Assembly (NCBI GenBank): GCA_025617745.1
Contig: CM046861.1
Location: 14,190,283-14,254,282 of the forward strand
Length of the DNA stretch: 64,000 nt
Origin: Heliocidaris erythrogramma
Taxonomy: Eukaryota; Echinodermata; Echinoidea; Camarodonta; Echinometridae
Reading direction: 5' to 3'
Below, piece after piece: positions 6,401 to 62,537 of this stretch. A model generated the notes under the pieces. That model saw only the letters and a list, made by a program, of their open reading frames with translations. It was not told the origin of the DNA and did no database searches. Position 1 is the stretch's first letter. Each line of letters starts with the position of its first letter. A program made the position numbers and the translations under genes.

Positions 6401-7984
6401 GCCTTCTTGTTTAATATATTTTGTATGAATCATCCATGCTATGATTATTACACTTTCGAATTATTCAAGAACCATATCATCTCAAAAACTCAAAAGATAA
6501 GATAATGCAATAGTGTTAGGTTGGACCTCTTAACAAACTTTCTTGTACAAGTCAACACACAGAAAGAACAAAGAGCTGCATCTTTCACCTCATGAAATAG
6601 TTTTTTTTATCATTTTACCCATAGCCACTGAATATTTCATACTGTCATACTTTCTCATAACAGGCCGATCAACGTACGATAGCTACCGTAGACCATCGCA
6701 CTGCTGTCTTTGACCCATGGGAACAGAGACTGGATTCACTCGGCGCTAAGTAAGCCTGTTCCATAAACGTTTTTATTAATAAGTTACACAATTTGATATT
6801 TACTATACTGAAATCATTGATTTGATTGGCTGTAAGCGAGTTTGTTATAGAATCGTGGCAGCTGTTATTTGTTGAACGGGGCGCGCCTGGCGAGATTGCC
6901 GGTGGCCATCAGGCATCAACAATGAAATGGGTGCATACTGGAGAAGGGGTTTGAATATGACGAAGAAAAGTGCATAGAGGGGTATTGCTTGGAAGAGGTC
7001 GAGAAGGACAGTTAAATTTGCTAATAAGCAATGGATTTAAGAACTGGTAATTTTGTAAAGGTTTTCGACAAGGCTAAAGGGAATAGGTTTATGACAAAGA
7101 GAAATAAAGAATTTAACACATTTGCCGACAATTACCAACAGAAAATGACATGTTTAATTTGTATTAAATGAGCAGGGTAAACGTTTTTAGTTCAATCTAC
7201 TCATTCTTTGTTTCACAGGATAGAGACAAGTTCAAGTGTCACTGATCTTAGGTTCGATGGTAAAGACAGCCTGGTGTCTGGATTATCACGTGATCTAAAT
7301 ATTTCTTATGATCATGTGATATTGGCCGCCGACTTATCCGCCGTGAAAGCGATCTTTACCGAAACAAGCCGCAACTTTCCGTACAACGAACGTCTCGCCT
7401 GCATTCAGAACAGGTTCCAGCGACTTCCCATGGCGCCGTCGTATAAGGTACTCAGGGTATGGTTCGATAAACAGATCGCGTCGACACATCCCGCCATTTT
7501 GCAGACACCCGAATTCCATCCAATCAATTTGATTGTACAGTATCACCTGATTGAAAAGAAGTCACGTGAGTGGAGCGTCCGCATGGGTGGTTCCATCGTT
7601 GAGTTTCATCTGTACGCTTGGGCGTATGGCGACGTGAGTGATGAAGACGTGTGGGACACCATTACACCAACAGTGAGGGAAATTTATCCTGAAATATTCG
7701 ACGAGGGTTTCCAAATATTGGGTCAGTTTGTCCATTCCGGAACAAACTTTGCATCGTTCCCGTCTAATCTTGAACACATCCGACCAACTGTTACTTTTCC
7801 ATATGAGTGCGGGGTTACGAATCTGAACTTTGCAGGTGATTGGTTGCATACCGACTACCCGTCAGCTCTAATGGAACGTGCCGTATCGACTGGTAGAATT
7901 GCAGCCAATCAGATCCTTCTGTCAGATCACGTGAGACAAGCCCCGGTGCTTGTCACGAGTAACTATGGACCAGGGTATATATGA
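275..7984 (+). CDS. Gene 1: FAD-dependent oxidoreductase, carotene-desaturase / amine-oxidase type (5' partial, six exons)
   Basis: Exons read from the sequence are 275-430, 4437-4589, 4978-5100, 5994-6142, 6664-6749 and 7219-7984. All five visible introns have GT-AG ends and the phases agree (1,1,1,0,2), giving 476 whole residues plus a stop. The first exon holds the dinucleotide-binding turn IIGGGPAGLSAALELVERG followed by GGRL, as in flavin amine oxidases and phytoene desaturases. Next comes VDHGFH-WFYNYHTFKDIR, resembling the HGFH segment of CrtU/CrtI-like carotenoid desaturases. The C-terminus has NFAGDWLHTDYPSALMERA and STGRIAANQIL, the usual C-terminal FAD-contact block of desaturases. 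The family uses FAD to desaturate, isomerise or oxidise polyene or amine substrates; the substrate here cannot be read. Desaturases are about 480-520 residues, so little is missing besides the start. No signal peptide can be judged. The gene converges on gene 2. An alternative assignment is a general FAD-dependent amine oxidase-like protein. Confidence 0.85.
1977..2935. repeat. Diverged tandem repeat, six units of about 147-184 bp
   Basis: Unit starts are near 1977, 2158, 2331, 2514, 2660 and 2837. Each begins with a GGGTGCAGGGAGGGG-like phrase, then TTTCCCCCTTCCCGC, then the self-complementary core GCGCGAAGCGCG followed by AAAGCTCTGACG, then AAATTTGAGAGAAAGATAACGG and a CGGAAAGTTAT segment. 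It ends with CTGCTTTTCAGTTATTTGGA and TACTGCACTG. The last unit lacks the GCGCGAAGCGCG core. Open frames here (e.g. 1821-2153) are repeat artefacts. Confidence 0.85.
4059..4127. repeat. Cluster of GTATAC/CGTATACG palindromes
   Basis: Within 70 bp there are GTATACGCGCGTATAC, CGTATACGGCGTATAC and GCGTATACGC. It lies in the gene 1 intron, about 310 bp before the next exon. Function unknown; it may be a short DNA-transposon relic. Confidence 0.45.
4437..4589 (+). CDS. Gene 1 exon
   Basis: Acceptor TTTCTCCTTTTCAG ends at 4436 and donor GTAAGG starts at 4590. It encodes WFYNYHTFKDIRHRLGIDG and onward to PFNVIG, the substrate-domain part of the desaturase fold. Phase 1 in, phase 1 out. Confidence 0.85.
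4590..4977 (+). other. Gene 1 intron
   Basis: 388 bp of AT-rich sequence with a GA-rich run (about 4840-4880) and a C tract at 4944-4962 just before the acceptor ATCTTTGCAG. No gene or other signal seen. Confidence 0.7.
4978..5100 (+). CDS. Gene 1 exon
   Basis: Acceptor TCTTTGCAG, donor GTAGGT at 5101. It encodes 41 codons including TLLKSPNFKVADIF and SVRFAYYNHDTVFQSYGN. Phase 1 at both ends, consistent with its neighbours. Confidence 0.85.
5101..5993 (+). other. Gene 1 intron
   Basis: It contains a 249 bp fold-back element (5271-5519) and a GC-richer stretch (about 5690-5930). The latter includes GACCATGAAGCTACAAACCA (5865-5884), which recurs at 59755-59774 and, inverted and partly changed, near 26393-26412, so it is probably an interspersed repeat end. 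Confidence 0.6.
5271..5519. mobile_element. Fold-back MITE
   Basis: The left end, AATTGTAGGTTTGG and CAGGGTTACACCA, is mirrored on the right by TGGTGTAACCCTG and CCTGCAATT. Inner arms GAATAAGAGCC / AAAAGGGCTG / GAGCTC are also mirrored. The centre is a second palindrome, AGGAGAATTCTCCT, flanked by two GATCAGTATG words. Almost the whole element can fold as one hairpin. No transposase and no clear target duplication seen. Confidence 0.8.
5994..6142 (+). CDS. Gene 1 exon
   Basis: Acceptor TTTTCTGCCTAG, donor GTGAGA at 6143. It encodes DEWAELDGLPAWFADTVLRP through FTGDSK. Phase 1 in, phase 0 out. Confidence 0.85.
6143..6663 (+). other. Gene 1 intron
   Basis: 521 bp with a GAGAG/poly-G run (6231-6257) and a C tract (6366-6378). 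Otherwise AT-rich with nothing recognised. Confidence 0.7.
6664..6749 (+). CDS. Gene 1 exon
   Basis: Acceptor CTCATAACAG, donor GTAAGC at 6750. It encodes ADQRTIATVDHRTAVFDPW to SLGA. Phase 0 in, phase 2 out. Confidence 0.85.
6750..7218 (+). other. Gene 1 intron
   Basis: 469 bp of AT-rich sequence ending in TTTGTTTCACAG. Nothing else recognised. Confidence 0.7.
7219..7984 (+). CDS. Gene 1 terminal exon (C-terminal FAD-contact block)
   Basis: The longest exon; one leading base completes a lysine codon and TGA is at 7982-7984. It encodes HVILAADLSAVKAIF, as in the middle FAD-domain strand of desaturases, and ends with FAGDWLHTDYPSALMERAV. A 29 bp piece of this exon (7473-7501) is found again, identical, in the 3' flank at 8209-8237. 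Confidence 0.9.
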
Positions 7985-16534: not shown

Positions 16535-18260
16535 TCATAGCTGTGTGTCATCTGATATGTCGTGTAATATTGAGTACTTTTCGATGAATGGCAAGAGAAG
16601 TGGGAAGACATCATTCTCTACATTCTTGCCAACAATGGAATCTGAGTGATTATAGGAAGGCACCATGAGGCACTCATAATGCTGGTCTGGGTTGCTCTCC
16701 TGGCATCGCTGGCAGCTCCGTTGAACTGACTTCTTGTCCCATCGGCTGTTCTGCTCACCCATGAAGAAGAGGATAGGAACATTGAGACGTGACATGGCTT
16801 CCTTGTACTCGGGATTCTCCTGGTAGTTATTGGCATCCCACTTCGGGATGAGAGGCTTGTCCCCGTCGCGGTTGCACAACAGCTTCTTGTTGGCGCACTT
16901 GGAAAGGTGTTTGAAGAGATCCTTGTTGGTGAAGCCGTTCCACTCATGCAGTGTGTCGTGGGTGCCCTTATTCATGTTACTGTGCTGCCATGACGGACGG
17001 TACAAGAAGGTTACTCGATGACACACGTGGCTGTCGCAGTGCTCTTTGGCGGACGTCACAAAACTGGCATACCTGTCTGAGACAACGTTGAAGACTCTTC
17101 CCATCCAGTTCTCGTTGGTGTCAGTGTATGCGTCAACGCCATCTCCGAGGAAGTTCGGGCCAGTGGTGGATGCTGCAGTCGGCTTGATGACAAAACCAAG
17201 CTGAGAAGAAACGATACTGCTGATCTTCTCCTTTGGAACAAAGCCCCCGAGGAGTGAGGCGAAAACGACCAGTGATCCTACACAGTGGCCAAATACCTGG
17301 ACGCTTGAAACTTTGGTGGACTGAAGGATGTGGTCAATAGCGACAGGAACATCAAACTCTGCTGCATCTATGACGGTGCTTTTATCCTTGTGAGATGGTA
17401 GAGATATCGAGAATCGCATGTCCAGGGACCAAACATCGAACCCTTTCTCTACCAAGTACTCCACCAGATTCTTGTTGATTGTGTCAATTGTGAAGATACG
17501 ACTTGACACACCTAGCCCGTGAAGTAATAGTATGGGGCCTTTCTTCCCACCTCTGTATCTCGTGAGGATAAGCGGTACGCCATCGCCTGCTGGAAGCTCC
17601 ATGGGGACAATGTCTTCTGGATCCATCTTCAGGAGTCGTCTTTCCCGCGGAGGAGCATCGGGATCAAACGGCGTTGTGGAAGGACTGAAGATACCGTAGA
17701 CTTCCCACAGGGAACCGGCAAAAAACTTGCAGAACTTTGTCTTCCATCTTAGTCTCTCGATCTTATTATTGCAGTTGGTGACATCAATGGTTGTGAGCTG
17801 CCTCATGAAATCTCGGATCTTGAGTTTCAACTTTCCATCACCGACTTTCTCCTCTGACTCACCAAACCCTTTAGTGACAGCGAATGTCATATTTGTTGTA
17901 TCTGTAAGACCCGTTGATAAGACTCTATTTTTGTGGATGCACTTTTCACCCTTGAAGAAGAAGACCTTCCCTTCTTCGTCAGTCAGGGTCATCTTGTAAA
18001 CCATTTCTTTGGTCTCAACCTTGTCTTCACTTTCGGCGAACAACTCAAAGATCCCATCTGAAACCGTCAGCGGAGTGTTTGAGAGTGCCTCACACCTGAC
18101 GATGCCGTAGATCCCCGCGCGATGGTGAGGGTCTATGTTCAGCATGTGATAGATATCCTTCGATTCGATGGTAAGCTTGAAGGAAAATATGTGTTTCTCT
18201 TCATTTAAGATCAGTTTTCCAGTCATCTTCTCCGTGAAGCGGAATCCCGGTTTGGTCTTT
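16535..18260 (-). CDS. Gene 2 exon 7 (alpha/beta hydrolase domain, stop)
   Basis: Acceptor GTATACAG on the minus strand. Reads KTKPGFRFTEKMTGKL first, then the hydrolase domain to TGA at 16537-16535. The nucleophile elbow is GHCVGS. The acidic residue is probably in FFMGEQNSRW and the histidine in VPSYNHSDSIVG. Overlapping frames on both strands are shadows. Confidence 0.9.
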
Positions 18261-21200
18261 CTGTATACGGTTGCTAGATTGAGAGTTGATGAAAAAGAAA
18301 ACTTAGTTATTTAATACAAAAGCGATGCATCGTCAATTACTTATATTGAATGTGCATGTACAGTATATATAGATAATTTGATTTCCTTGATTCTTGATTT
18401 TTAAAAAATGGTACGGTGCTGGAGGAGTGATTGATTTTTTTTTAAATTAATTGATCATGACGGGTATTGAAAATGATCATTAAATTATAGGTACGTTACT
18501 AGAGGAGTCATTTGTTCTGTAATTGATAATGGAATCCTTTAAAAATTAAGATTATCAACTAAAAAACAGAACCTACCTATGTTCCTTCTAGATGGGTAGT
18601 CTATAGTCCATCCTTGCCTCTTTGCTAGAAGACGAAGGCACCTCTCAGCGACCATGGCAATGGTTAACGTTGGATTAACGCCAAGACTGCGAGGCATGAC
18701 TGCTCCATCAACTACCAGAAGACCTGGATAGACGTTATCATACTTGCCAACGTACACCTGCCCAGCATGGTTGACCACACCTTTCTTGCCTGACTCACCC
18801 ATGCAGCAACCACCCAATGGGTGCACAGTGATGATACCCTTGGTATTCCTTAGCTCACTCAACATACCCTTCCAGAATGGGTTTGCAATGTGATGTCCCT
18901 CCAGAGCAGCAGTCAACTTCTTCGACCCTTCGAAGATCTTCTCGAAGTTCTCTCCACATCCGACCATAGGAAAATCTACTGTGACTCGCCCACTGGCCTT
19001 ATCGCGGACGAGTTTTCCATCAGCAGAGTCGTGGCTCATAGACAGGACGGAGAGGGTGTTCTTAATAGCCTTGCCTGATATTGCACGCAGAGCTTCAAGC
19101 GTGTTCTTGCCATGTGAGAGTTTCAGTCCAGGGGTGGTCTTAAGGAGTATCTTCAAGGGGGCCTCCCAAGCAACAGGCGGTGTCCCATCCTCAAGGACAT
19201 ATCCATCTTCCAGTGGAGCATCAGGGAGCCTCATATCAACAACCGATGAAATGCATGGTCCCGGGCCATGCCCTGGTTTTAGATCACCCGGTTTCACACC
19301 GACGCATTTGACTTTATGTGCCGTATTGTAGCTGAAGTTAAGAGCGTCACCATTCGTCGTGAAACCATCTCCCAGTTTTTTGGACAGCTGTAGACCTCGC
19401 TCTGCAGAATTCATCAAGATATTTGTAGACCCCAGTGACCCAGCTCCCAGAATGACAATCTTTGCTCGTACTGTCTGCTCTACCACATGAAAGACATCCT
19501 GGATCAACTCTTCGTAGAACACCTTCCACATGCCTTTGGACTCTTCCCGAAGAACTGCCTTTACTTTGGTCTGTATGGATATGGTAATAATGAATGATAA
19601 TACAAAGTCAAAGAGAGGGAGAGAGAGAGAGAGGGAAGTAAAGGAGAGAGAAAAAGGAAATGAAAAGGAGAAATAAATCTTGAAAGAGTAGAGACGGACA
19701 TACATACAGACAAACAGACAGACAGGAGAGGGGTAGTTTACGATTATATAGAATCAATCAACTTATTTACCGTGGACGGTTTTAATCATCTGTTTTAAAA
19801 ATAATAGACAGAAACTATACGGAAGAGAAAAATCGTGCCTTCATCGGGGGCGGATCCAGATTTTTGTAAAAGGCAGTGGCACAATTAATGGCCAAAATAA
19901 AAATTCTGAAAAGAAAGAAGAGTCATCAGGTTTTTCAGGTGCCTTTTTGTATGTATTGGTTGAAAATAACTTTTGGTGTACTTAAGATGATACCACATTG
20001 ATTTTGGGGGCACCTTCCCCCTAAATCCGCCACTGTCTTTATACTTCTCTCATTTTTCCAAAAGTGAAACGAATGGCCTACCTGCGTGAAAATGTCGGCA
20101 CCAAATGTCCTTGCATCAGGCAGGTAGTTGAAGTTGAGAGTGTTTTTTGCACCTACGTTGCACCCACCGACGCAATTGCCGCACCCGTTGCATTCAGGCT
20201 GTGGGATGCCAAAGTCGTTCTTCTCCGCATGTTTGAAGTTCACATAAAGGGGCACCCTTTAACAGAAAGAAAGTTTATTAAATTTAGAGTAAAAATTTAG
20301 TTTATTTCAATGGATATTGTCTTATTCTGTTTTGCAGACTGCCAATTAATTCCCACTTTGGCGACTACAGGTAATAGTAATGAAAGGGTTATACTGTCCG
20401 TAATCTGAAGAAATGTCAAGTACCCTTTTAACATTTCTCTATTCACACGTTTTTAGATCCATCGAAAACTTCAGTTTTGCATTTAGATCATATTTATATA
20501 AAACGAATAACGCGGAAATGCACATCAGAAAACCTGAAAGGGCAGCTTTGTTTTCGAAAGTTCTTTCACCAGTAACACGACAAAAGAAAATTACTTCTCA
20601 GTGACATTTCGATAATCTACTTTAGTTTCCTGATCAATTACTGTAAAAAGGAAGAGAAAGAAATATAGAGGAAGAAAGATTTCGATCTTAAATAGCATAG
20701 GACAAGGCAAGGGTGCCATCTGAAGGTGGTGTTTTACATCAGCTAGAAGGAGCACGGGCAGGAGTCTGGAAATACCGCAATGGAAACTAAGAGAGCATTT
20801 CTCCGGAAATTATTTTCTCGCAGGAATCCCTCAGGTCCTCATGAGGTCCCGAAGGGAGGCTGCCTGGGTTGTTTTACGCTTTATTAGGGGGCTTGTTATC
20901 CCTGTTTTTTCTTAATGGGGGGGGGGGGGGTCGTTTCGTCCCTTGGGTCCTCCAAATTAGCATGGCTTAAATGAATGGAAAGCTAATTGTATGGTCTCTT
21001 ACCTGCTGAAAACATCTGATACATGGAGATCCTCGATATCCTTGATGACATTGGCAGCTCCAAGCTTCAGCACCTTCATCTTAGTCAGCTCCGGGAAGTC
21101 ATTGGGGTATCTCTCTGGTTTCAGCATATCGAACACGTGCTGCCTATCTTCCCCATACAACATGGCCAAGTCATCACGAAGCTCTTTGGGCCAACGCTTT

Positions 21201-21526
21201 AATAAAAATAAATCAATCAATGAATGGCTTTGTATATTTTGTAAATCTCGTACACGGCACCCCCCCCCCCCCCCCCTTTGCAATAATGTATAATGTATTG
21301 CTATACAATGATACTGTTTTTACATTTGAGGAGTGGCATAATACAGATCATGTATCATTATGACAAAATCACAAAATATCACTTGAAATGTACACCACTG
21401 CCATTACAAGGACAGTATTAAAAGAAAACGAAAGAAAAAAGAGGAACATTACGAAACTAATATTTAAAGGTATCAGATTTTTACAAGAAATATAACTCGG
21501 GGAAATCGTTTGGAAATTATTGGATG

Positions 21527-21561
<35 letters not shown>

Positions 21562-24500
21562 TCACTCTCTCTCAACAATCAGACTAGCTGTCAACGTTTT
21601 CGCTTTCATTATGCTAGGAAACTCATGAAATATAATGATTGACAAGTTAAGTTTTCAAGTGACTTTCATTTTGTCAAATCAAACTAGAAAAAAATGTTAG
21701 ACATTTAACATTATACAATTTAGCATGAGCAGTGGCACTGAAATATTGTACATGTTTAGGTAGTCTCCGTTTCATAAAACTTGAAAGTTACATTAACAGT
21801 TATAAGCTACTGGAATACTTGCATCTGATTGGCTGAGAGCAAATTTGCCATAGATATGTGTCAGTGGCTATTGATAATAAGTTTTATGAAATGGGGCCCT
21901 GCTTTGATATCAACCAGAGATCCTGGGTTCGTTTTGCTTAATTTAAAACAACAATCATAATCATCATATTAGCTAAAATAATTACAAATATCAACTGCGG
22001 ATAATGTCATAAGATATGATATACATGTCTAAATACCTCACGGCAATGTTCATCAGACATTACGTCTGAAGGTTTATAATTATATTGATACGTCAACACA
22101 TGAGTCTTATTAAAGTTCCAATTTTCAGAACACTCCCTAAGAAAAAATCAAAACCAACTTTTTTTTCTGCTGCTTGGCGGTCCAAACTAGTCCAGCATTT
22201 GGCAATATTGATGATAACACATAATACCACAGCGACCTTTGCTTTGCCATCAATTACTAACACTAATCAGTATATCCACTCTTATCCCCGCACTTATATA
22301 ACCTTAACCTAAAAACGCTATTGCTATCCAAGCCCTACCCAAATCTGGCCGTAAACATGTACAATGAAACATGTCACAAAATATCGTTCAAGGGAAACAA
22401 GAAATTCGATCTTAATAAGAAATTGGTCTCAGAATACAAAGTGGTCACTTATTTGTGAAAAAAAAACTATAGTAGGAGCAAATGGCGCCTGGGCAAATGT
22501 ACTTAAGTACAGGTTTCGGTGAGAAACAAACAAAACTGGTCTTTATAGACAGCTGGTCTTTCTATACAGGTGGTCATTAAAGGAAAAGTCCTCTCTAATT
22601 CCAAGGTGGTTTTAAATAAAGCAGAAAAAGTTAAAGGGACAGATCAGTGAAAGTTTGAGCAAAATACGATGAGAAATAAGAAAGTTATGATTATTTTAAA
22701 GTTGTAATCAATCAAACACAAATTGGAATTTTGCTCAAACTTTCACTAATAAGTTTCTCTCATTGTTCTTGATTTATTGAAATCAACTTAATATCAGGGT
22801 GGACTTTCCCTTTAATGCGGGTTTCACTTATTTGTGACGAATTAGCCCTAAGCAAATGGCGGATATCCGGCAATATATCACTTATTTTTATTTTTATTTT
22901 TTATTTTATTTTATTTCCACAAAGCTGATAAAAATACAAATATACAACATTACAAAGAATAATGGATCACAGAAGATACAAAAACACATATAAATTCATA
23001 GACATTTGAAACAATATCAGAGCAGAAATCATAACAGAAAGCATACTATACAACTTACAGTGAAAAGGTGTACACTACACAACAACTACAAAACACATAA
23101 ACGTAACATGGGAAGGCAATGATTTTGCAAAACATAGAATAGCATATACAAGTAAAAAGTTGTTATTCATTCACAAGAAATGTTTTGTATTTTTTTCTTA
23201 AATAAACAAAGATTATTGCACGTTTTCAAATCTTCAGACAGGTCATTCCAGAGTAAAGGTTCAGTATAATTAATAGTTCATCTCGATATGTTATATTTGT
23301 AACTTGGTATATACAATTTGTTCATTTGTCTAGTATTATAATTATAATTATTCTTTACATTATTTTGAATAAATTCATTATCTAAACATTTTGGCAATAC
23401 ATATGAATACATAAAAGTACCTACCAAAAACATATGGATATCAAAAATCAAACTAAATCAAATCAAATTACCTCATCCTCAAAGACCCGTTTGTCACACT
23501 CCAGACCTACATTGGCATTGATCAGAGAAGTCCCTCCTAGTCCACAACCCTGGAGGACGCTGACATCTGTACCGACCACCATATCAAAAAGACCAGTTTC
23601 TTTACCTGGATATCAATGACCATGGAATGGGAAAAGACGGATTACGACAAGGAATCCCGAACAGAAATGGAAATTAGCATCCTTTAAAAACGTTCCGTTT
23701 TTAAAGGAATATGCGCACAGTAAATGTGTCCTTTTATCAATTCTCCTTCCTCTTTTTTCTTTTATTTTCCTCTTCCCTTTCCCTTATGATGTTTTGGCAA
23801 TGAAACCTTCCTTAAGCACTAATAGAGGATAATTTGTGCACTAATCCAATTAACTTTGAATTGTCAACAGTCATATAACCGTCTTTAAATATTTGCCACA
23901 TCTTCGTAAAAAAATATGCAAACATAATTATAAACATAAAAATGGATGAAAATTCTTTATGTTCAGAGTTTTATGACTTAGAATTGGAAATAGAATCAGA
24001 ATTACAGTTTAAGTTTTAATATGAATAAAAAAAGAAGAAATTGAAGAAATTGAATTTGTATTTTGAACTATTTTGAATTTGAATTTGAATTTGAAAAAAA
24101 GGCACTCACCAAAGACAGTTTTCTGTCCTGGTCTTGTCACTTGTAACTCGTTGACTGACTTGAGTTCGCTCTCGGGGAAGTCCCCCGGCCACCACTCCTT
24201 CCCTCTCTCCAGCACGCAAACAGTCTGACCGGCACGGGCGCATCGGCTAGCGGCGATCGATGCTCCGTACCCGGATCCGATGACCACCACATCGTACTCG
24301 GCTTTGATTTCGGTTAGCGGCGAGGATAGTCGGTACGTCGAGTAGTCGTACTTTGTGGTGTTCGGCGTTATTTTTGAAGCGGCCTGTTGGAATGAGTGAG
24401 GGGAGAGCGAATTTGGATTGATGACGAAATGATGTGTTAATGTGGATGACTAAATATGAAGCTAAATCATCATTCCAAAGCGGATCTCATTGGCGAGATA

Positions 24501-27500
24501 ACTATATGAAAATGACGACCGAGTAAAATGTCTTAAAATCGGAAAAAAGAAGGTAAATTTGAAGAGAAATAATAATTTGAATTCCGCGTATTCTACGTGC
24601 GTTTACCAAAATAAAGGGGGAAAAGATGAAACAAGATGAATGCTACTGCGTCTGCTATGGCTCAAACAGTTCTTGAATATTGTGATAACCAGAATAAAAA
24701 AGCTTATATGTTAATTGACCTCTTTGACATTACAACTTATAACCCGAAAGTCTGATCACTTAATCTCCTCCTATATGAATACAAAATAGTTGAGATATGT
24801 TGATAACAAAGGTAAAAAACCCCATTAATTTCACATACACCTGTATAATGACCTCTATGACCTGTCACCTTTGACCTACGTGAACAAAAATATAATCAGT
24901 TCGTCTCATTATGGTGATGCATACTAGTTCCAAGTTTGAAGTTAATGGATCAAATGGTTCTTGAGATATTGTGTTAACAAGGCTAAAACCTGAAATATCA
25001 GAAATTGACCTCTGTGACATTTCAACTTTGACCTACATACCTCAAAATCGAATCAGATCGTTTTCTTATTGTGCTACATACTAGCACCATGTTTGAAGTT
25101 CATACCTCAAATGGTTCTTGAGTTAACGCGAGAAAGATGCTAGCACCTGAAATTTCAGAAATTCACCCGTGACCCGCTTTCAAATTTGGCCTACATACCC
25201 CAAAATCACACCGTTTTCTCATGGTGATACATACTACGCATAAAAACAAACGAAGACAAAAGTCCTATTTCATGATGCAAAATGATAGTTATTTTTATTT
25301 TGAGAGTTCCAATATCCGCCTTCCGATTTGAAAAACCTTTCCCCAAAATCCGGGACAAAATACAATGTACTCCAATTTGGGAGACTTTTGTTGTTACTCA
25401 AATTAGAGAAAAAAGGGTGACCATGGTTAGATTAAACATTACCCAAGTTTGGCATAACTTGCCCCAAAGCTGGACACATAATTACTGTCACGGTGGTCAC
25501 ATTTTTACCCAACATTTTCTTTTACAGTTTATGTTCGGTGACCGTATAATTTTAAGTTCAGTTCGTGCAAAAGGAAATCAAACATCCTGGTATTACATTC
25601 TCTTCATACTGTGGGCTTCCGTTTTACTCTTCTTATTTTCTTTCGACTCCCATTTAATAGTGATACATGCCCTATATGAAACTGTACTGCAAAGCATTTA
25701 AAGGAAAGTGTATTATGTAGCCGCTTCGGAAAATCATAATACACGTGTCCTGCATCTAATTTTCATTTGAAAATAGTACAGTGAAATCTGTGTTAGCTTC
25801 CTCATTCTAAAACTTAAAGGTATATTTGTTTGTTATGTTGTAATCAGTTTGTAAAATATGTTTGAAGAGAAAAATATCATCATAAAGAGAAATAAATAAA
25901 TCAAATCAAAAAATACTTGAACGGCACATTATTTCTATTCTTGTCGAAAAGTTATCTTTTGTTAAATACGAGCATGACTGTTCATATTAGTTCATACACT
26001 GGAGCAAACACACAATAAATCACAGACATAACCGCCGTGTGTACGAATATGAATAGAGCCGCAATCGTAAAAGTACCCACAATCGTTTCCCACGCTGGTA
26101 GTAAATACATTTATAATACACCTCAAGGTTAACAAAAAAAATGCACAAAATACCTATGTTGTACACTCTTGCTGCCCATGAACAAAACACAAAAAAGACA
26201 AAGGAATGGCATTGATTCAATATAATATCGCATTGTTCATAATCAATATATTATGTTCGTTCACGCAATATATTCGAGGTTATCTAATCAAGGGTTATCA
26301 GAAATTAGTATATCAAAAGGGGAAAAACTATAGACTTTGTCATGTTTGTTATGAACGCAGTTGTACGACATGATTATACCATGAAGCTACAGTCATTGGT
26401 TTGTAGCTTCATGATTATACCCCGCGGCGACAATTGCTTCGCGTCAGTGTCGTACAATAACCGAAATCAAAACTTCACTCAAACCGTGAAGCTAAAAGAA
26501 AATCACACGTACTCTCAGAAATGTTGGTTAAAAATCACTAGGTTGATTGGTTCAAATATGAACCTACCAACTGTTGGTTAAAAACAAAATTGTATGTAAA
26601 ATATATGGGGATTTAGTTGGTAGGCTCATATTTGAACCAACCTAACATCTTTTCTGAGAGTGTTATATGCAGACCGAATTTCAAAACACATAGCAAATAG
26701 ATAACAGTATTAAATGCAAACTAAGAAAATGAACGATTGAAAACTATAAACAAAAAATAATGAGAATTGATTCCAAGTTTCTCAATACCCTACTCCATCC
26801 TTTCTGTTAGCCAATTTTTTGTTATTTAATTTAAAGACATGGAACAAAAAAGAATCTATGAAAACTTGCCAATAAGAATAACATAATATATCATTCACTT
26901 TGTGCTGTTTAAACTTGTTTGAAGCCTCTGAAGTCAAAGATTTTGAAATTGACCCAATATCCCTTGCGTGAGCGGGACAAAATATAAAATAACATGGAAC
27001 TCCCTGCTCTTCATTAAAAAAACAAACCGGACGAGGAACTACGAATTTAATTTTACTTGCATATTATATACAATTATACACTAATTGAGGTACAGCACGT
27101 ATTAACAGTGTGCAAGGAGATCAAGTGCATTAACCGAAGTTGGTGTATGATATGAGGAACTCTATCTTTGTATCACTCTAGCAAACAAAAAAGGGTAAAT
27201 GCAGGTATCCTTCCAGGATTATGCCTTTGGGAGACGACTTCAAAATACCTGTATTTGTATAGCAATTGACAGAATACATTCCCCAATAATGAGAATCTAT
27301 AGACTTCATGAGGTACCCCGTGTGCATGTATGGACTTTGGACTCGCTAAAGCATTGCTGTAACCTTAACAACCTCTCCAATATATGGTTTTATTATCTTG
27401 GAATAATGAGGGTTGTCGTTTGATACAAAAGCCCCGATGATGACTGTGTTCGACCCAACGTTTAACCCAACGAATACACAGTGTAGCACAGTAAGAACAA

Positions 27501-27698
27501 GGGAGGGGGCTCGGTTGCTATAATAAGGTAGAAATTGGCACTGCAAATGCTACACATTTGCTAACCGCCCACTAGCAAAATAATAGTCCTTCAGGATAGG
27601 CCGCCAATGGCGCAATCAGGGCTCCTTGCCAAGGAAAAGAGGGGGGGGGGGGGGACGAATCCGAAAATTATAATAAAAGGGAAAAAGTGAATGATGTC

Positions 27699-27734
<36 letters not shown>

Positions 27735-30700
27735 AATAATAATAATAATGATAACATAATATTAATAAATAATTATAATGTCATCACATTTCTTAGGTAC
27801 ACTTTCGGGCTACAATAATAATATGGGGCACAGTTCGGGGGCTCACCCGTATCCTGGATCCGCTTCTTGTTAGTAGCCAAAAATAAATTGAGAAAAGTAC
27901 TAACAAGCCACAATTCTCAGTAGCTGATATATATTTTTTTCTCTCTTTCTCTTTAGAGTGAAGTATGAAAGATATTTATTGTGAGAAAAAAAAATAAAAA
28001 ACTTTTTGTTCGTGATCTAAATCATTATTTTAGTAATTCATATCCTCGTGAATTTCAAGTTTTCTTTACCCCCCCCCCCCAAAAAAAAAGAAGAAGAAGA
28101 AGAAGAAAAGATTAGCAACCTGACGCTCATTTTATTACCTATTGGAAATAAGCTAGAACATGTACAATGAAAATGAAAATGATGTAAAATAATGCTTTTC
28201 ATGAAATTGCTGCTCACAGTGAGCACTTATACACATTTTTATACGGGAAAGGCGTGCAAAGTTGAGGTGAACTCATGAGATAATATTTATCATGATTATG
28301 AAAGTGAATTTTGATAAATGATTTTTTTTTCTTCTTAAAGATACGCAATATTTTTGTTCAGCATTGTATGCAATCTATCCTTGGGAGGTAGATAGGAAAA
28401 TGCATTCCTTCGTCGACTTTTATTATTCGTTGGCTTTGTTATTTAAAGGCGCTTTTCATTAATAATTAACAATTATTTTGTTAAGATATCATATATTCTC
28501 TTTATCATCAGACCAATGTGTATTATGAATGGTTGATAAATCTAGTTGCTAGAATGACGCCCACGTTCATACAAATAAACGTGGAGTTCAATATCCCCGA
28601 AGTCGTTTTATGCATAGAAGAAACTTGTGTAAACAGAATGTCTAATTTACGCAACATGTTAAAAAAAAGTGAAAGTATTACATCACCTATTGAGGGATAA
28701 ATATTTAAAGCTATTGCACAATTTTGTTAAAGTCAAAGGGAGTAAAGAAATTCTCATTTTCAATACACATACATATACAACATTTCCATCTGAAGAAGAA
28801 AAAAACACCCGATCCGAAGTGCCTGCATCTACAACGGTGCGTTTATTTCTATTTTCAGGCTAGAAATCAGCGTTTTGTTCATGGCCGTCGTGTCCGGAGC
28901 TTTTATTTTTCCTCGCAGAATCACGGTTTCAAAATACTGATACGGTACAAAGCCCTAATTTTCGTGGAGATAAGAGCTATAGACAGGGTACCGTGAAACA
29001 GGGTTTCAAAACTGTGTTCCATAACTGGGTCTCAAAAAGCTGATTCTGGTTTCGCAATTGAGCTATAAATGCACCCCAAAGAGATCTGAAACGATTGCAT
29101 TGTCGATATATCTCATGCAAATAAGCGTTGATTTGTTGTTGTTGTTTGTTTGGATTATTCGCCTGATTCCCTGAATGATAATCAGACTATGAATATCACA
29201 CTGACGAAACTGCTTGAAACGTGCAGTTCATTGATAGATACGGTTGTAATCAAGTCAAATAATCTATTAAATACGTTGAAAGCGAAAAAAAATAGCATTT
29301 CTCATCGAGAGAGGGAAAATATAATTATCCGCCGGACAGATAACCACTGTCCACATTGTCCTCTCATAGCTTTCAAAGCTTATTACAGAAATTTGGTTAC
29401 CGAATTGGCAGTATGGGGTTCGAATCTCTACCACACCACGAACGTCCTTTAGCAACAAATTAATCTACATTTGCCACTCTCGCGACCCAGGTGAGGTAAA
29501 TTTGTATCCAGTAGGTAGAATTTGTGGTGGTCTGAGAATGCTTGAGAGCCTAAACCAGGGTAATAATAGTATCTAGGGGTTTGTTAGTATCATAAATAAA
29601 AAAGCGCTTTTATAAACCACATTGTCATCTGTTATTACCGATTTGAACCCAGTGGATTCACAAATAATACACAGTTCCATCGATTGTATCGATTCCTCGA
29701 CCAACGGTACCTTTAAACGTCTAACAAGAGACAGGATATGAAGGGATTTAAGCGGAAGGAACTAAGATCTCTGCATTTTTTTCTTAACATCCGCCTTCTC
29801 ATCGACAGGTCAGTCTATTGGTACGTGGACTCTTTAGAAAATTGAGTTCTGGTTTATGTGTAAAGCTTTAAAAGCCCAGGTATTATTTTCCTGTTCCATC
29901 TGGAAGAATATCAAAGTAGAAACGTCACCCATGGAATGGATTGCTCTTGGAATGCCCTCATATCTATTCTGGAAATACAATTAGAAATGACCGAATTTTG
30001 ACGCCACATACGTGTTCGCGTGTGTATGTGGGTGTGTATTCCCATTTACCAACTCAATTCAATTCAATTCAAATCATTTTTATTTCCAACAACAATAACA
30101 CAAATAATACAGAACATTCATTATATCAATTACAAAGTACGCAAAAAGTACAACAAATTTCGTTTAGAATGTTCAAAATACAATAAAAAATAACATATGA
30201 AGGAAAAGAGAGACCCACTAGAAAGACAAGCTTGTAGTTTGTGGGTCACTCAAATAAATAATTATGAAGTGTGAAGTGAAGGAGAAGGTCAAAGGTCAAG
30301 GTAAATAAAGGAAGGAAGATCACAGCACATTTTTTTCATCCTCATCGGCAGGTCATGTGCAAGAAGTGCAAGCTATAGTGCATGTACATAAGTACCGCCG
30401 CCCCCCCCCCCCCCCCCCAACTCGTGGAAGTCGGAGGGACCGCATGGGTGTTCTCAAAATCTCTGGTAAAGGGGTACTATTCGCGCGACACAATCCAGCC
30501 TGTGAATTGTTGGTTTTTTTAAAGGAGGTGAATTTGACTTTTCACCGGAGATTTATGTAAAAAATGGGGGGGGGGGGGGGGGGGGGGGTTCTCTTTCTCT
30601 CTCTCTCTCTCTTTGGACTCCTGAGAAATGACCTCTATAGGCCTACTTATTGCAAAAGTTATTTCCGTCGTTGCATGTGGGGAAAATACATAATAGATAA

Positions 30701-31789
30701 TGGGGGTCACATGTGTAGTAATAGAGAGTGAAAATCCTTTAATTTCTAATTTTAAAAAAGGATCGATGGATTAATGGTGGTCTCAAGGTCTTATTCTAGA
30801 TTTTCTGAATCACACGATTATTTGCACATCTTTAAAAAAAATTATAATTCATTGAAAACCGTAATAGTTTCGTCATGGCCTATTTTAAAGGTGTTTATTC
30901 TTGCCTTCTCTAATATGGTGTAAACTTCTATCAATATCTCTATGATAATCGTAATTTGTAATCATTACAAATTATTAAGTATCATGGAGAAGAAAAATAG
31001 AAGCTGATGAAGAAGCTGAGTAGAGGAAGAGGAGTAGGAGGAGGAGAAAGGGGAGAGGTTGCCCAGGAGTGGAGGAAGCTGCAGCCGCTCCGAGATTTTT
31101 TTTGTTGTTCGAGTGTAATACCAAGTTCAGTTAGACATTGACATGCAACTATGTATCTACTCATTCTGCTGTAGCACTGCTAGTTTCTGGTCGGCCCCTA
31201 GACAGAAAAATCCATCTGTTTGGAGGATTTTTATAACATTATTGACTTTTGAGGCTCTCCTCCAAGACAAACGGAAGCCTCCCATAGTCACCGCAGTCGA
31301 GTACCTATGTCTATGGGCAAAAAGTGTGAGGTACCTCACCCCAACTGTTTACGACAAACTGAAAATCGGAAAAGAAAACAATTTAGACAAAATATCATGA
31401 TAAATATATACTTTATATAGTGGACTCACCCGATTTTTTTTTATAATCTCAGAAATTTTACCCCGTTTTCCATGTTGTCAACGGGATTATCGCAAGTGAA
31501 TATGTCGGGCGAACAGACATGCAGGGCCCCAATGCATTGTCAGAGCCCAATGTTTTGACGCCTCTGCGAACAGAATACTACTATATACCAAGGAGGTCCC
31601 AGCCAGGTCCCAGCCAGAATTAAGCACATACTGCAAGACCCCAACGGGAGTGCGCGGGGCAGACTTCGGTCTAGCTTGTACGCCCCATAGTATACTATAG
31701 AGAAGACTACAAGTATGTCAACAAAAGTAACCTAAACGTGAACTTACCGCCTTCTTCGGCTCTCGACCATTCCTCTGAAAGTTGGCCAT
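16535..31789 (-). CDS. Gene 2: GMC (cholesterol-oxidase-like) oxidoreductase fused to an alpha/beta hydrolase, seven exons, complete
   Basis: Exons in order are 31789-31748, 24383-24110, 23605-23472, 21196-21003, 20256-20082, 19570-18573 and 18260-16535. They total 3543 nt, 1180 residues plus TGA. The start is in good context (AACAACATGG). Residues about 45-605 are a GMC flavoprotein: VVVIGSGYGAS (FAD, ~46-56), LQGCGLGGTSLINANVG (~122-138), four cysteines in ECNGCGNCVGGCNVGAKN (237, 240, 243, 247), HPLGGC (His ~523) and GVNPTLTI (Asn ~572), the catalytic pair in cholesterol oxidases. After a linker domain starting FTEKMTGK, residues ~830-1165 are an alpha/beta hydrolase with LLLHGLG (oxyanion loop, ~853), GHCVGS (nucleophile elbow with Cys ~932 instead of Ser) and YNHSDS (His ~1144). 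The family typically oxidises a sterol or other alcohol. The fused hydrolase may act on an ester or lactone, which is inference. No signal peptide. Similar fusions are known mainly in bacteria. Confidence 0.88.
18261..18572 (-). other. Gene 2 intron 6
   Basis: 312 bp, AT-rich. The donor is GTTCTG, a weak match. A better-looking GTAGGT four bases upstream (18576-18571) would break the frame. Confidence 0.65.
18573..19570 (-). CDS. Gene 2 exon 6 (GMC C-terminal catalytic part)
   Basis: Starts at ACCAAAGTAAAGGC after CCATACAG. Encodes VILGAGSLGSTNILMNSAER (second FAD-domain strand), then HPLGGCCMGESG and SLGVNPTLTIAMVAERCL. 998 nt, phase 2 out. The upstream extension of the open frame into a CTCTCTC run is intron. 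Confidence 0.9.
19571..20081 (-). other. Gene 2 intron 5
   Basis: 511 bp with a GAGAGA run (19615-19640) and an AGGGGCGGATCC-family MITE at 19846-20035. Confidence 0.7.
19846..20035. mobile_element. MITE with GGGGGCGGATCC / AAATCCGCC ends
   Basis: The left end GGGGGCGGATCCAGA is mirrored by CCCCCTAAATCCGCCAC on the right. Interior AT-rich. Related ends occur at 38201-38351 and around 59330-59450. Confidence 0.6.
20082..20256 (-). CDS. Gene 2 exon 5 (four-cysteine cluster)
   Basis: Encodes VPLYVNFKHAEKNDFG then ECNGCGNCVGGCNVGAKN and TLNFNYLPDA. The Cx2Cx2Cx3C spacing resembles iron-sulfur ligands and is typical of bacterial long-chain GMC enzymes of this subfamily. Acceptor TTCTGTTAAAG, donor GTAGGC. 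Confidence 0.88.
20257..21002 (-). other. Gene 2 intron 4
   Basis: 746 bp. A G tract of 13 at about 20918-20930 and a GC-richer patch around 20820-20880. No exon recognised. Confidence 0.65.
21003..21196 (-). CDS. Gene 2 exon 4
   Basis: Encodes RWPKELRDDLAMLYGEDRQH to DLHVSDVFS. Acceptor TTTTTATTAAAG, donor GTAAGA. Phase 0 in, phase 2 out. Confidence 0.88.
21765..21897. mobile_element. Fold-back MITE, GTTTCATAAAACTT type
   Basis: CCGTTTCATAAAACTTG at the left is mirrored by AAGTTTTATGAAATGGGG at the right. Loop includes TCTGATTGGCTGAGAGC. About 130 bp. Confidence 0.65.
22425..22580. repeat. Quasi-periodic GGTGGTC / TCTTTATAGACAG repeat
   Basis: Phrases AATTGGTCTCAGAATACAAA, GTGGTCACTTATTTGTGA, CTGGTCTTTATAGACAG and CTGGTCTTTCTATACAG, then GTGGTCATTA, recur at short spacing, interrupted by unrelated sequence. 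Same family as 175-245, 540-610, 4170-4250, 35440-35620 and 45815-46020. Confidence 0.5.
22635..22811. mobile_element. MITE flanked by TTAA (AGGGACAG...CTTTCCCT)
   Basis: AGGGACAGATCAGTGAAAGT at the left and GTGGACTTTCCCT at the right, with TTAA immediately outside both ends (22631-22634 and 22812-22815), as expected for piggyBac-type insertion. Inner inverted arms AGTTTGAGCAAAAT and ATTTTGCTCAAACT. Confidence 0.6.
22876..23420 (-). mobile_element. LINE 3'-end fragment
   Basis: On the minus strand about 23259-23165 reads PLLWNDLSEDLKTCNN and on to a stop, the usual C-terminal tail of jockey/CR1-type reverse transcriptase proteins. It is followed by an AT-rich 3' region and a TTTTA-rich tail at 22880-22915. 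5'-truncated and dead. Confidence 0.6.
23472..23605 (-). CDS. Gene 2 exon 3 (GMC signature)
   Basis: Encodes GKETGLFDMVVGTDVSVLQG then CGLGGTSLINANVGLEC and DKRVFEDE. The acceptor is GATATCCAG and the donor GTAATT. Phase 1 in, phase 0 out. Confidence 0.9.
23606..24109 (-). other. Gene 2 intron 2
   Basis: 504 bp, AT-rich, with an AATTTG repeat at about 24063-24092 next to the donor GTGAGT. Nothing else recognised. Confidence 0.7.
24110..24383 (-). CDS. Gene 2 exon 2 (FAD-binding GSGYG)
   Basis: Acceptor CTCATTCCAACAG, donor GTGAGT. Encodes AASKITPNTTKYDYSTYR, then YDVVVIGSGYGASIAASR and GKEWWPGDFPESEL. Phase 0 in, phase 1 out. The motif order is that of bacterial GMC oxidoreductases. Confidence 0.9.
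24640..25235. repeat. Old diverged tandem repeat (TTCTTGAGATATTGTG type)
   Basis: Four degenerate units carry CAAA-GTTCTTGA-ATATTGTG (near 24663, 24785, 24946, 25107), TTGACCT-TGACAT-AACTTTGACC and TGATGCATACTAG-TCCAAGTTTGAAGT blocks, spaced about 122-165 bp. Similar phrases recur in many invertebrate genomes as an ancient interspersed repeat (general knowledge). Confidence 0.65.
26361..26458. mobile_element. Small fold-back element
   Basis: TTGTACGACATGATTATAC at the left; the inner palindrome ATGAAGCTAC...GTAGCTTCAT is centred near 26395; the right end is GTGTCGTACAA. Shares GTTTGTAGCTTCATG with the repeats at 5865 and 59755 (opposite strand). Confidence 0.6.
26511..26661. mobile_element. 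Fold-back MITE
   Basis: ACTCTCAGAAATGTTGG, then GGTTCAAATATGAACC and TACCAAC, are mirrored by GTTGGTAGG, CATATTTGAACCAACC and TTTTCTGAGAGT. Confidence 0.75.
27699..27748. repeat. GAT/AAT microsatellite
   Basis: About ten GAT units followed by AAT units. Confidence 0.9.
30053..30250 (-). mobile_element. LINE 3' end with AATTC-repeat tail
   Basis: Starts with four AATTC units and ATCATTTTTATTTCC, the reverse complement of a poly-A-less LINE tail ending in short tandem repeats. It is followed by the A-rich stretch typical of such 3' regions. No reverse transcriptase part seen. Confidence 0.5.
31748..31789 (-). CDS. Gene 2 exon 1 (start codon)
   Basis: Encodes MANFQRNGREPKKA. The ATG context is AACAACATGGCC (A at -3, G at +4) and the donor GTAAGT at 31747-31742 is strong. 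It joins exon 2 in phase 0 and makes the whole coding length divisible by three. No other upstream candidate was found. Very short first coding exon, so transcript evidence would be valuable. Confidence 0.75.
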
Positions 31790-40040: not shown

Positions 40041-42573
40041 ATTCAGATTCAGATTCAGATTTTTTATTTCATTACACTTTCATTTTTCAAAGTACATGTT
40101 TTTAACAATATGTATTATGCAATCAACAATATTGACAATACAAATTAGTGCAGAAACGTTTTTGATCATTACAAGCAAAATAATGTGCATTAAAGTTTGA
40201 GTTGTAAGAAAAAAAGTAACAGTAATGAAGACTACATTAGATTAATTTTATGAAAATGATAATGAAAACAGAGACCAGCATAGAAGCATAGCTTGTAGAA
40301 GCGCTGGTCCCTGGCAAAAGATAAATCATGAATACAGCACATAAAAAACTAGTCTGGGCAACCATGCATAAAATGCCCAATAAAAGGGAAAAAGAAGAAG
40401 ACAGATACATGGCCATGGAAAGCAAACAAAATCATAATCATAACACACTTTCCATCGAAGAGAAAGCATTGAGAAATAATAAAGCTGGGAATAGTAACAA
40501 TGGAAAGGAGTAAATTTTACAAAAGACAGAAGAAGGACAAAGTGACAGGGGGCGAGGGGGGGGGGGGGGGTGGGATGGAGGGGCAGGATCTGGAAGGTTT
40601 CATTTAATCTATAGATTTTGCTATACAGGTAAACAAGAATCACCATTGAGGGATCAACGTTCATAAAAAGCAATAAGTGATTTTCTCAATTTACGTTTGA
40701 GTGTACTTAAACTTATACTGTCTCGTATATTTAAAGGGAGTGAATTCCAAAATTTAGGAGCTGTATATGAAAAAGTATTCTGGGTTAATGCTGTACGAGT
40801 TCTTGGCAAGTGATAAAGATTGATTTGTCTGGCGTGGTAATGATGGATCTCATTATTTGCTGTAAATATATTATTGAAGACAGTTGGCAATTCATGATTA
40901 TGATACTGAAACATAAGTACAGCAAGATTGAGGCGGTAAATATCATAAATTTTTAGTACATTATTAGAGTGAAAAAGACCATCAGTGTGGTGGCGATAAT
41001 TAACATTACTTATAATTCGCATAGCTTTTTTCTGTAATAAAAAAACTCTGTCTAACAGGCATGCCGCACTGTTTCCCCAGGCTAATATTCCATAATTAAG
41101 ATATGGTAAAACTAGTGTGGAGTATAGTGATAGAAGTATGTTTGGCGGAAAAGACCATTTGAGTTTGTTAATCATACCTATGTTTCTGGAAATCAATTTA
41201 CATACATTATCAATATGATGCTTCCATGATAGCTTATTATCTATTATAGTGCCTAGAAATTTTGTTTCAATCACCTTCTGTATTTGTATATTATCTATGA
41301 GAATTGGATGAGGAAGTTCGTTAAAAGTATTACTAAATAACATGTAATTTGTTTTTTCTAGATTTAGTGATAACTTGTTAGCCTTAATCCATTTTGCAAC
41401 TGAATCCAGTTCAGAATTAATCACATTACATATAGTTTCTAGGCTTTTATGCGAGAAAAATAGATTAGTGTCATCTGCATACATGATAAAAGTCAATAAA
41501 TTTGATCTATGAAAGTCATTTATATACAAGATAAAAAGTAAAGGGCCTAGAATAGAACCCTGTGGAACACCACAATTAATATTTCTTAATTGTGACATGC
41601 AGTTCTCAATACAGACATATTGCTGACGTTCGTATAAATAATTTCGAAACCAGTCTGAAACAATGCCCCTTATGCCATAATGTGAAAGTTTGCTTAAGAG
41701 AATTTCATGATCTATAGTGTCGAATGCCTTAGAGAAATCTAAGAACATTCCTATTGTGTGGGTACCGTTATCAATAGAACTTGTAATATTATTGATTAGA
41801 GAGAGGAGAGCATGTGTTGTATTATGGTGTTTTCTAAATCCGAATTGAGATTCATGTAAAATATCGTTATTATTCAAAAACATCATTGTGCGAGTAAAAA
41901 CTACTTTTTCAAGTATTTTGGAGAAAGTGGTTAACAAAGATATTGGCCTGTAGTTTGATCGCGATAACGGATTACCCTTTTTAAAAATAGGGATTATTTT
42001 GGCTAATTTCATTTTGTTTGGAAAAACACCTGTGCTCAGAGATAGATTACATATATAAGTGAATGGTTCAACAATACTTGCTATTATTTTCTTAATTATA
42101 AAATTATCCAGATCATCATGTCCACAACTGCGTTTACTTATAAAATTGTTCACAATGTCAAGGACTTCACCTTCATTTACAGGAGTAAAGAACATAGAAT
42201 TAGGGTTAGGGTTTTGTAAGTAATCATAAAATTTTCTATCACAGTTTGGTATCTTACTTGCTAAATTTGGACCAATTTCAACAAAATAAACATTAAAGTG
42301 ATCAACAATATTTTGTAACTCATCAACAGTTTTTTCATCAATTTGTATATTAGAAATAGTACTTTTCTTTTTCTGTTTATTCAGAACTTCATTGATTAAT
42401 TTCCATGTGTTTTTAGCATCTTTGTTACAGTTCATAAATTGACGTGAAAAATATATCTTTTTTTCTCTAAGTAGCAACCCTGTCAATGTATTTTTATAAT
42501 TCAAATATTTCGATTTAGAACTTTCAGTGGGATTCGCTTTATATTTCAAATAAAGATTATTTTTCCTATTTAT
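40041..42573 (-). mobile_element. 5'-truncated LINE (jockey/CR1/L2-like) with intact reverse transcriptase frame
   Basis: The insertion splits the first satellite unit between TGATGTTAG (40032-40040) and TGATCTTAG (42574-42582), a 9 bp target duplication with one mismatch. The 3' end (left side) is not poly-A but a short tandem of GAATCT, as in CR1/L2-type LINEs. The endonuclease part is missing; the frame stays open to the truncation point. The 3' UTR is about 610 bp and contains a G tract at 40556-40570. Confidence 0.85.
40654..42549 (-). CDS. Non-LTR retrotransposon reverse transcriptase (ORF2 C-terminal part)
   Basis: 631 codons without a stop. Reverse transcriptase motifs occur in order: SNYRPISLLTTFSKILEKV, SQFGFRKHHNTTHALLSL, GMFLDFSKAFDTIDHEILL (catalytic Asp), GVPQGSILGPLLFILYIND, FIMYADDTNLFF (catalytic YADD), LEKTNYMLF and FLGTIIDNKLSWKHHI, then the LINE tail FWNSLPLNIRD. 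The methionine at 42549 is merely the first in a truncated frame; the frame continues 24 bp upstream to the insertion edge. The N-terminal endonuclease is absent, so this copy cannot move by itself. The intact frame implies fairly recent insertion. Confidence 0.9.
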   Translation of the reverse strand: MKYKANPTESSKSKYLNYKNTLTGLLLREKKIYFSRQFMNCNKDAKNTWKLINEVLNKQKKKSTISNIQIDEKTVDELQNIVDHFNVYFVEIGPNLASKIPNCDRKFYDYLQNPNPNSMFFTPVNEGEVLDIVNNFISKRSCGHDDLDNFIIKKIIASIVEPFTYICNLSLSTGVFPNKMKLAKIIPIFKKGNPLSRSNYRPISLLTTFSKILEKVVFTRTMMFLNNNDILHESQFGFRKHHNTTHALLSLINNITSSIDNGTHTIGMFLDFSKAFDTIDHEILLSKLSHYGIRGIVSDWFRNYLYERQQYVCIENCMSQLRNINCGVPQGSILGPLLFILYINDFHRSNLLTFIMYADDTNLFFSHKSLETICNVINSELDSVAKWIKANKLSLNLEKTNYMLFSNTFNELPHPILIDNIQIQKVIETKFLGTIIDNKLSWKHHIDNVCKLISRNIGMINKLKWSFPPNILLSLYSTLVLPYLNYGILAWGNSAACLLDRVFLLQKKAMRIISNVNYRHHTDGLFHSNNVLKIYDIYRLNLAVLMFQYHNHELPTVFNNIFTANNEIHHYHARQINLYHLPRTRTALTQNTFSYTAPKFWNSLPLNIRDSISLSTLKRKLRKSLIAFYER

Positions 42574-62100: not shown

Positions 62101-62457
62101 CTATGTGCTCAAGGAGGTGCTTACCTGGTAGGCTACCACCTTGATAGTCTTTCCCAATAGACCGCTTCGGTAATGTATACAAATTTTATACAAACCTTTC
62201 AAACAAAGGTTGTTCTTGACAACCTGAAAGCTTGCCGGAGTTTGCATACAAATAATGTATGCAAACTGATTCCAAGCATTGATGCTCATTTATAAACATC
62301 AGGTTAATGAATAACTCGTCAGGGAATATTATGTGCATAAATTTGTATACATTACAGAAGCGGTCTATTGCTTTGAGGCAATAAGTTCTTTCACAATGTA
62401 ATCTCATGACCAGGGGCCTGTAACATAAAGAGATAAATAAATATTACGATTGATAAC
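59116..62457. other. 3.3 kb block present only in duplication copy 2
   Basis: AT-rich with no recognised gene. Contains a GGCGGATC/GGATCCGCC MITE fragment (about 59330-59450), the repeat GACCATGAAGCTACAAACCA (59755-59774) and a segment (62160-62340) related to the interior of the 13414-14400 transposon (AGACCGCTTCGGTAATGTAT, CAAAGGTTGTTCTTGACAAC). The right border lies inside a fold-back element (62412-62537) whose left arm is missing from copy 1. Confidence 0.6.
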
Positions 62458-62537
62458 AATCGTAAGTCTATGGCAAACCATGTACTGAAGAGTTACAATT
62501 TATTGATTGATTGTATCTCTTTATGTTACAGGCACCT
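62412..62537. mobile_element. Fold-back MITE (CCTGTAACATAAAGAGATA)
   Basis: Left arm CAGGGGCCTGTAACATAAAG and GATA, right arm TATCTCTTTATGTTACAGG and CACCTG. Copy 1 (about 54563-54645) retains only the interior and right arm. Confidence 0.8.

Follow-up and report, generated by a model that had tools for sequence, protein, structure and literature searches.

A predicted sea urchin gene that joins a GMC oxidoreductase to an alpha/beta hydrolase with a cysteine elbow, and its bacterial fusion relatives

The stretch of Heliocidaris erythrogramma DNA analysed here, in the following called the window, comprises 64,000 nucleotides (CM046861.1, positions 14,190,283 to 14,254,282) and sits on contig C9 of a 1.06-Gb assembly of 26 contigs. 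The assembly also encodes bindin (PF02084, 2.1e-68), a protein characteristic of sea urchins and related animals, which makes a sea urchin very probable as the host. Its minus strand holds seven exons, bordered by GT-AG throughout, which join into 1183 codons and a stop. The predicted protein combines a GMC oxidoreductase, a beta-rich middle domain and an alpha/beta hydrolase, and the presence of such a fusion gene in the urchin genome is confirmed as a prediction from DNA. An earlier, sequence-only reading had proposed seven exons joining GMC to hydrolase. This agrees with the splice sites, the single frame and the single open reading frame (ORF) of bacterial relatives. Its one frame of 1180 codons stands as a frame, but the count is 1183, so that its Cys932 and His1144 become Cys935 and His1147; the seven motifs that it quoted are all present in the joined frame. 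The four-Cys motif of the GMC half, the relation of the hydrolase to acid lipases, and the near-identical copy and the paralogues of the gene had escaped that reading. In window coordinates the gene is composed as follows.

16535..31789, minus strand: whole gene, seven exons, 1183 amino acids (splice-site gene model)
31748..31789, minus strand: exon 1, with ATG and GT donor, residues 1-14, the least certain exon
24110..24383, minus strand: exon 2, with the GSGYG motif (residue 50) for binding flavin adenine dinucleotide (FAD)
23472..23605, minus strand: exon 3, with GCGLGGTSLINANV (residue 125)
21003..21196, minus strand: exon 4
20082..20256, minus strand: exon 5, which holds the four-Cys motif
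20160..20192, minus strand: four-Cys motif C237-x2-C240-x2-C243-x3-C247, candidate iron-sulfur (Fe-S) ligands (coordinates from the exon table)
18577..19570, minus strand: exon 6, remaining GMC domain with HPLGGC (His523) and VNPTLTI (Asn572)
16535..18273, minus strand: exon 7, encoding the middle domain and the hydrolase (residues 606-1183 modelled with AlphaFold2, predicted local distance difference test score 88.9)
17687..18273, minus strand: beta-rich middle domain, about residues 605-800 (Pfam scan, AlphaFold2 model)
17282..17284, minus strand: codon of Cys935 in the nucleophile elbow GHCVGS (Cys in 90/90 rows)
16748..16750, minus strand: codon of Asn1113 at the usual acid position (Asn in 88/90 rows, 2 gaps)
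16646..16648, minus strand: codon of His1147 in YNHSDS (His in 88/90 rows, 2 gaps)

The GMC oxidoreductase occupies residues 1-600, the middle domain about residues 605-800 and the hydrolase residues 820-1183. Pfam matches were obtained for GMC_oxred_N (1.9e-12), GMC_oxred_C (5.2e-13) and Abhydrolase_1 (9e-9); the Pfam scan gave no match for the middle domain. Fold searches barely probed this domain, because the GMC and hydrolase domains filled the lists. The weakest part of the gene model is exon 1, which has 42 bases, lies 7.4 kb upstream of the remainder and lacks conservation in the paralogues described below. Paralogue matches set in only from residue 27 or 28, which leaves the real start of the protein uncertain.

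Searching plasmids with tblastn matched 83 records, in eight of which a single place spans 80% of the protein or more. Seven records match 96-99% of the protein in single matches with 32-37% identity, and the gene is therefore not a chance assembly of exons. A scan of 84,980 prokaryote species yielded 182 relatives of the middle-hydrolase part. Among 87 loci, consisting of the seven plasmid records and the best 80 of the 182 relatives, 71 encode a GMC-middle-hydrolase fusion of the same order in one ORF, one encodes GMC and hydrolase, and 15 are split or partial. The suggestion of a bacterial-type fusion in an animal genome is thus borne out by the full-length plasmid matches and the one-ORF loci. 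The split or partial loci include cyanobacterial ones (L034, L037-L041, L063 and L065), where GMC-middle (GM) and middle-hydrolase (MH) ORFs are separate, each with a middle-domain match, and a DUF6765 gene lies close before the MH ORF. In the phylum of locus L010, at least 17 of the 149 genomes sampled have some match and at least 4 a full-length one. Some of the bacterial loci have further oxidative genes nearby. Neighbour families, defined as single-linkage clusters within the fetched flanks and assigned by Pfam on representatives only, comprise a family whose representative is RoxA-like (16/87 loci), one with a P450 representative (9/87), a second GMC gene (22/87) and metallophosphoesterase-like families (9 and 7 loci). 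Viral carriers were also considered: none of 44 pattern matches was confirmed by tblastn. Literature searches, in which subscription journals were mostly missing, showed no title or opening of an abstract on the fusion in animals or on its activity among the papers listed.

The hydrolase alignment contains 90 domains, 89 of them bacterial and one from the window gene. Position 935 is Cys in all 90, and positions 1113, 1147 and 1149 are Asn, His and Asp, respectively, in 88/90 with 2 gaps each. Three urchin paralogues agree at the Cys, Asn and His positions and have the Cys elbow (3/3). The GxCxG elbow had been taken as a departure from the usual elbow in the animal. However, it is a family trait and not made in the animal, because the bacterial relatives carry Cys as well (89/89); the prokaryote pattern used to gather them left out the nucleophile elbow. 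The proposed triad of Cys, His and an acid near residue 1108 has to be abandoned, as the residue at the acid position is the invariant Asn1113. Asp1117 is no substitute either, since its column is mostly Leu and otherwise variable. The question whether animal homologues have Ser instead is answered within this genome only, where all five hydrolase exons, two of them identical copies, carry Cys.

Five more members of the family, with identical active-site residues, came from a wider search. Outside the family, Ser, Asp and His are found in the three nearest hydrolases whose alignment spans both halves; a fourth, of which just the first half aligns, has Ser as well. Eight weak matches, which we take to be PhaC-like, have Cys in an elbow of the GYCxGG kind or a similar one, and their acid position is unaligned; one match was too short for residue comparison. 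Judged from these alignments, a joint exchange of Ser to Cys and Asp to Asn marks the fusion family, given that Ser and Asp are found outside it and Cys and Asn inside. By fold, the closest solved relative of the hydrolase is human lysosomal acid lipase (profile match 2.5e-13; gastric lipase 2.1e-13).

The loss of both Ser and Asp from the classical triad would also suit a hydrolase half that is no enzyme, with the Cys-Asn pair marking a lipid-binding domain, either dead or regulatory, by which the GMC half is controlled. The cyanobacterial split forms, with hydrolase and GMC as separate ORFs, likewise speak for such a role. Nevertheless we consider it unlikely: the Cys, Asn, His, the Asp two positions after the His, and the glycine and histidine neighbours of the elbow are fixed from bacteria to urchin, and Cys-His-Asn has a precedent in papain-type enzymes. 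PhaC, moreover, works as a Cys alpha/beta hydrolase, as described in PMC5509742. A polyhydroxyalkanoate (PHA)-synthase-like polymerase or acyl-coenzyme A acyltransferase, which would share the elbow Cys with PhaC, is quite improbable. The class III profile TIGR01836 scored 25.4 bits versus a cut-off of 365.3, acid lipases are far closer, and the acid position of PhaC is Asp according to PMC5509742, in contrast to Asn here.

By sequence, the GMC half is nearest to cholesterol oxidase (family profile, E 7.5e-42), in agreement with the cholesterol-oxidase-like character assigned to it earlier. It scored 152.5 bits with the cholesterol oxidase equivalog NF058674, for which the cut-off is 850. His523 and Asn572 are the active-site His/Asn pair of the GMC C-terminal part, each present in 68/69 fused rows; Glu361 of cholesterol oxidase falls in a stretch that HMMER left unaligned (chain residues 323-369). 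The C-x2-C-x2-C-x3-C motif occurs in 69/69 aligned fused bacterial GMC domains, counting those with at least 380 residues covered, in the window gene, in 4/4 urchin paralogues and in 19/23 stand-alone bacterial GMC domains. According to PMC6719666, Cys212, Cys218 and Cys222 bind a 3Fe-4S cluster in the GMC fold of BcGDH, the alpha subunit of an FAD glucose dehydrogenase, and Cys213 forms a disulfide to another subunit. Residues 237, 243 and 247 of the urchin protein have the same spacing as 212, 218 and 222 of BcGDH (x5 and x3), an equality of sequence spacing only.

Among sequences whose activity is known, the nearest are cholesterol oxidases that use oxygen, and the GMC half could accordingly be a plain oxygen-reducing oxidase whose four Cys are structural or bind zinc. 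A profile of the motif region matched 57 solved sequences up to E 10, of which five are not Fe-S proteins by name and mostly contain zinc-type domains. The other 52 are Fe-S proteins by name, albeit most of them weak matches, the four Cys are absent from the aligned stretch of cholesterol oxidase, and the spacing is that of the BcGDH cluster ligands. A plain oxidase is hence the less probable case, though one to be taken seriously.

The middle-hydrolase exon has five matches in the genome: the window gene, a second copy on C9 and three paralogues on C6 with 48, 47 and 39% identity to the window gene in this exon. In two of these C6 paralogues, GMC exons precede the middle-hydrolase exon; their segment borders, near residues 106, 150, 215, 273 and 605, match those of the window gene, and both paralogues have an extra border near 537. 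The stretch fetched for the third paralogue showed no GMC exon. Two further C6 genes have GMC exons, and no hydrolase exon was found within the stretch fetched. Inspection of 15 paralogue segments for splice sites revealed a clear GT donor or AG acceptor beside the match end in several, the remaining sites being blurred by alignment ends. One pair of genes is listed separately.

C6:24106806-24130143: tandem pair of GMC genes that carry the four-Cys motif and share 91% identity over the compared columns; no hydrolase exon seen within the stretch fetched

At C10:25474272-25542000 (L088-L093), the genome has a cluster of additional GMC genes, seen as six strong GMC_oxred_C matches.

In a quick tree of the middle-hydrolase part (93 rows), the four rows from the urchin group together in a single clade with a support of 100 in the Shimodaira-Hasegawa-like approximate likelihood ratio test (SH-aLRT), beside a Nitrosomonas group (89). 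In the GMC tree (97 rows), the five urchin rows also form one clade (SH-aLRT 100), with a placement support of 40. Both trees were built without bootstrap, and the compared set consists of bacteria and this urchin genome. Because the urchin copies form one clade and share exon borders, the likeliest origin suggested by the trees is that the gene was acquired once and long ago with its domains already joined, and was then duplicated and gained introns. The ancient transfer proposed earlier is accordingly the simplest way to account for a single urchin clade among the bacterial fusions in this set. Loss of the hydrolase or splitting of the gene after acquisition would fit some urchin copies. Transfer in the opposite direction, or inheritance with loss, are alternative origins. 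Bacterial contamination or a decaying recent transfer might be suspected, since the relatives found outside this genome in the plasmid and prokaryote searches are all bacterial. This is already disfavoured, to the point of being extremely improbable, by the introns, the chromosome-scale contig, the intact frame and paralogues that are 38-46% identical to the window protein in exon 7 and have exon borders in common.

The second C9 copy lies about 290 kb away and encodes an identical protein; all seven exons are exact, exon 1 included. The near-identical direct copy spans at least window positions 7181-62500, from a neighbour gene (7181-7981) through 60500-62500. As its flanks are 92-99.9% identical, it is either a recent large duplication or an assembly artefact or retained haplotype. 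Two neighbouring elements were noted in the window.

4440-7984, plus strand: neighbour gene, whose last exon (7181-7981) matches Amino_oxidase (6.3e-14) and, weakly, HpnE; earlier exons placed by eye only
40660-42585, minus strand: reverse transcriptase ORF (RVT_1, 1.3e-37), similar to a long interspersed nuclear element

Bacterial relatives of the neighbour gene include a Calothrix 'phytoene dehydrogenase' (30% identity). A link of the fusion to this FAD amine-oxidase-like gene was rejected, as comparison at E 1e-3 gave no match to it among the bacterial ORFs of the 87 loci.

We tentatively favour the view that the protein is an urchin member of a bacterial GMC-middle-hydrolase family, acquired once and already fused, which combines a GMC dehydrogenase with Cys-based acyl-thioester chemistry. 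In the GMC half, FAD together with His523 and Asn572 would oxidise a lipid-like alcohol, and the electrons would leave via a surface Fe-S cluster on Cys237, Cys240, Cys243 and Cys247 to a protein acceptor; with this exit, the GMC half would work as a dehydrogenase. In the acid-lipase-shaped half, Cys935, His1147 and Asn1113 would form an acyl-thioester, from which the acyl group is released or transferred. The middle domain presumably links both halves and may hold lipid. As a whole, the protein would remove an acyl group from a lipid, or put one back, and oxidise the alcohol of that lipid; our best guess from the sequence is that a dehydrogenase for lipid alcohols is fused to a thiol esterase or an acyltransferase. 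Sterols are appealing candidate substrates, given that for both halves the nearest relatives with solved structures act on sterols or their esters.

Several points weigh against this proposal. The second Cys is missing in 4/23 stand-alone bacterial GMC domains. Only one of the 57 motif-profile matches lies below E 0.01 (0.0011), and BcGDH is not among the 57. The middle-hydrolase exon of a C6 paralogue gave no Pfam match at 0.01. The sterol or lipid substrate is drawn only from fold kinship, and to our knowledge many of the bacteria with the family are not known for sterols.

A more daring variant places both reactions in series on one chain: the Fe-S-wired GMC half would make an aldehyde from a lipid alcohol, Cys935 would take up the aldehyde, and the resulting thioester would be passed to another molecule. 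Its hydrolase would be a lipase fold remodelled to carry Cys, His and Asn in the manner of papain. Both the series and the remodelled fold are very doubtful. If the favoured combination of dehydrogenase and acyl-thioester chemistry is true, a joint Ser-to-Cys and Asp-to-Asn exchange on an acid-lipase fold was kept from bacteria to an animal, a candidate Fe-S GMC dehydrogenase is present in an animal, and a bacterial gene for lipid handling was taken up fused and then multiplied in a sea urchin.

Among known systems, fructose dehydrogenase, which reportedly carries an Fe-S cluster, and BcGDH resemble the GMC half, whereas the urchin protein has a fourth Cys between the ligands and a hydrolase domain. 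BcGDH-type complexes include hitchhiker and multihaem c subunits; none is known for the urchin, whose genome was not searched for them. Class I (GMC) cholesterol oxidase has the FAD, HPLGG and NP motifs in common with the urchin GMC half, but lacks the four-Cys motif, and the extra domains are those of the urchin protein. PHA synthase PhaC has the GxCxG-elbow Cys of the urchin hydrolase, but keeps Asp, and the sequence match is weak. Human lysosomal and gastric acid lipase share the hydrolase fold with cap and the His-x-Asp with the urchin protein, whereas the acid lipase triad Ser153-Asp324-His353, as given in PMC7397744, is replaced by Cys935-Asn1113-His1147. The bacterial fusions (e.g. WP_149201188.1 and WP_338815766.1, annotated as 'alpha/beta fold hydrolase' or 'GMC oxidoreductase') agree with the urchin protein in domain order, length, invariant Cys/Asn/His and four-Cys motif; their genes are single ORFs, whereas the urchin genes have introns, paralogues and GMC-only relatives.
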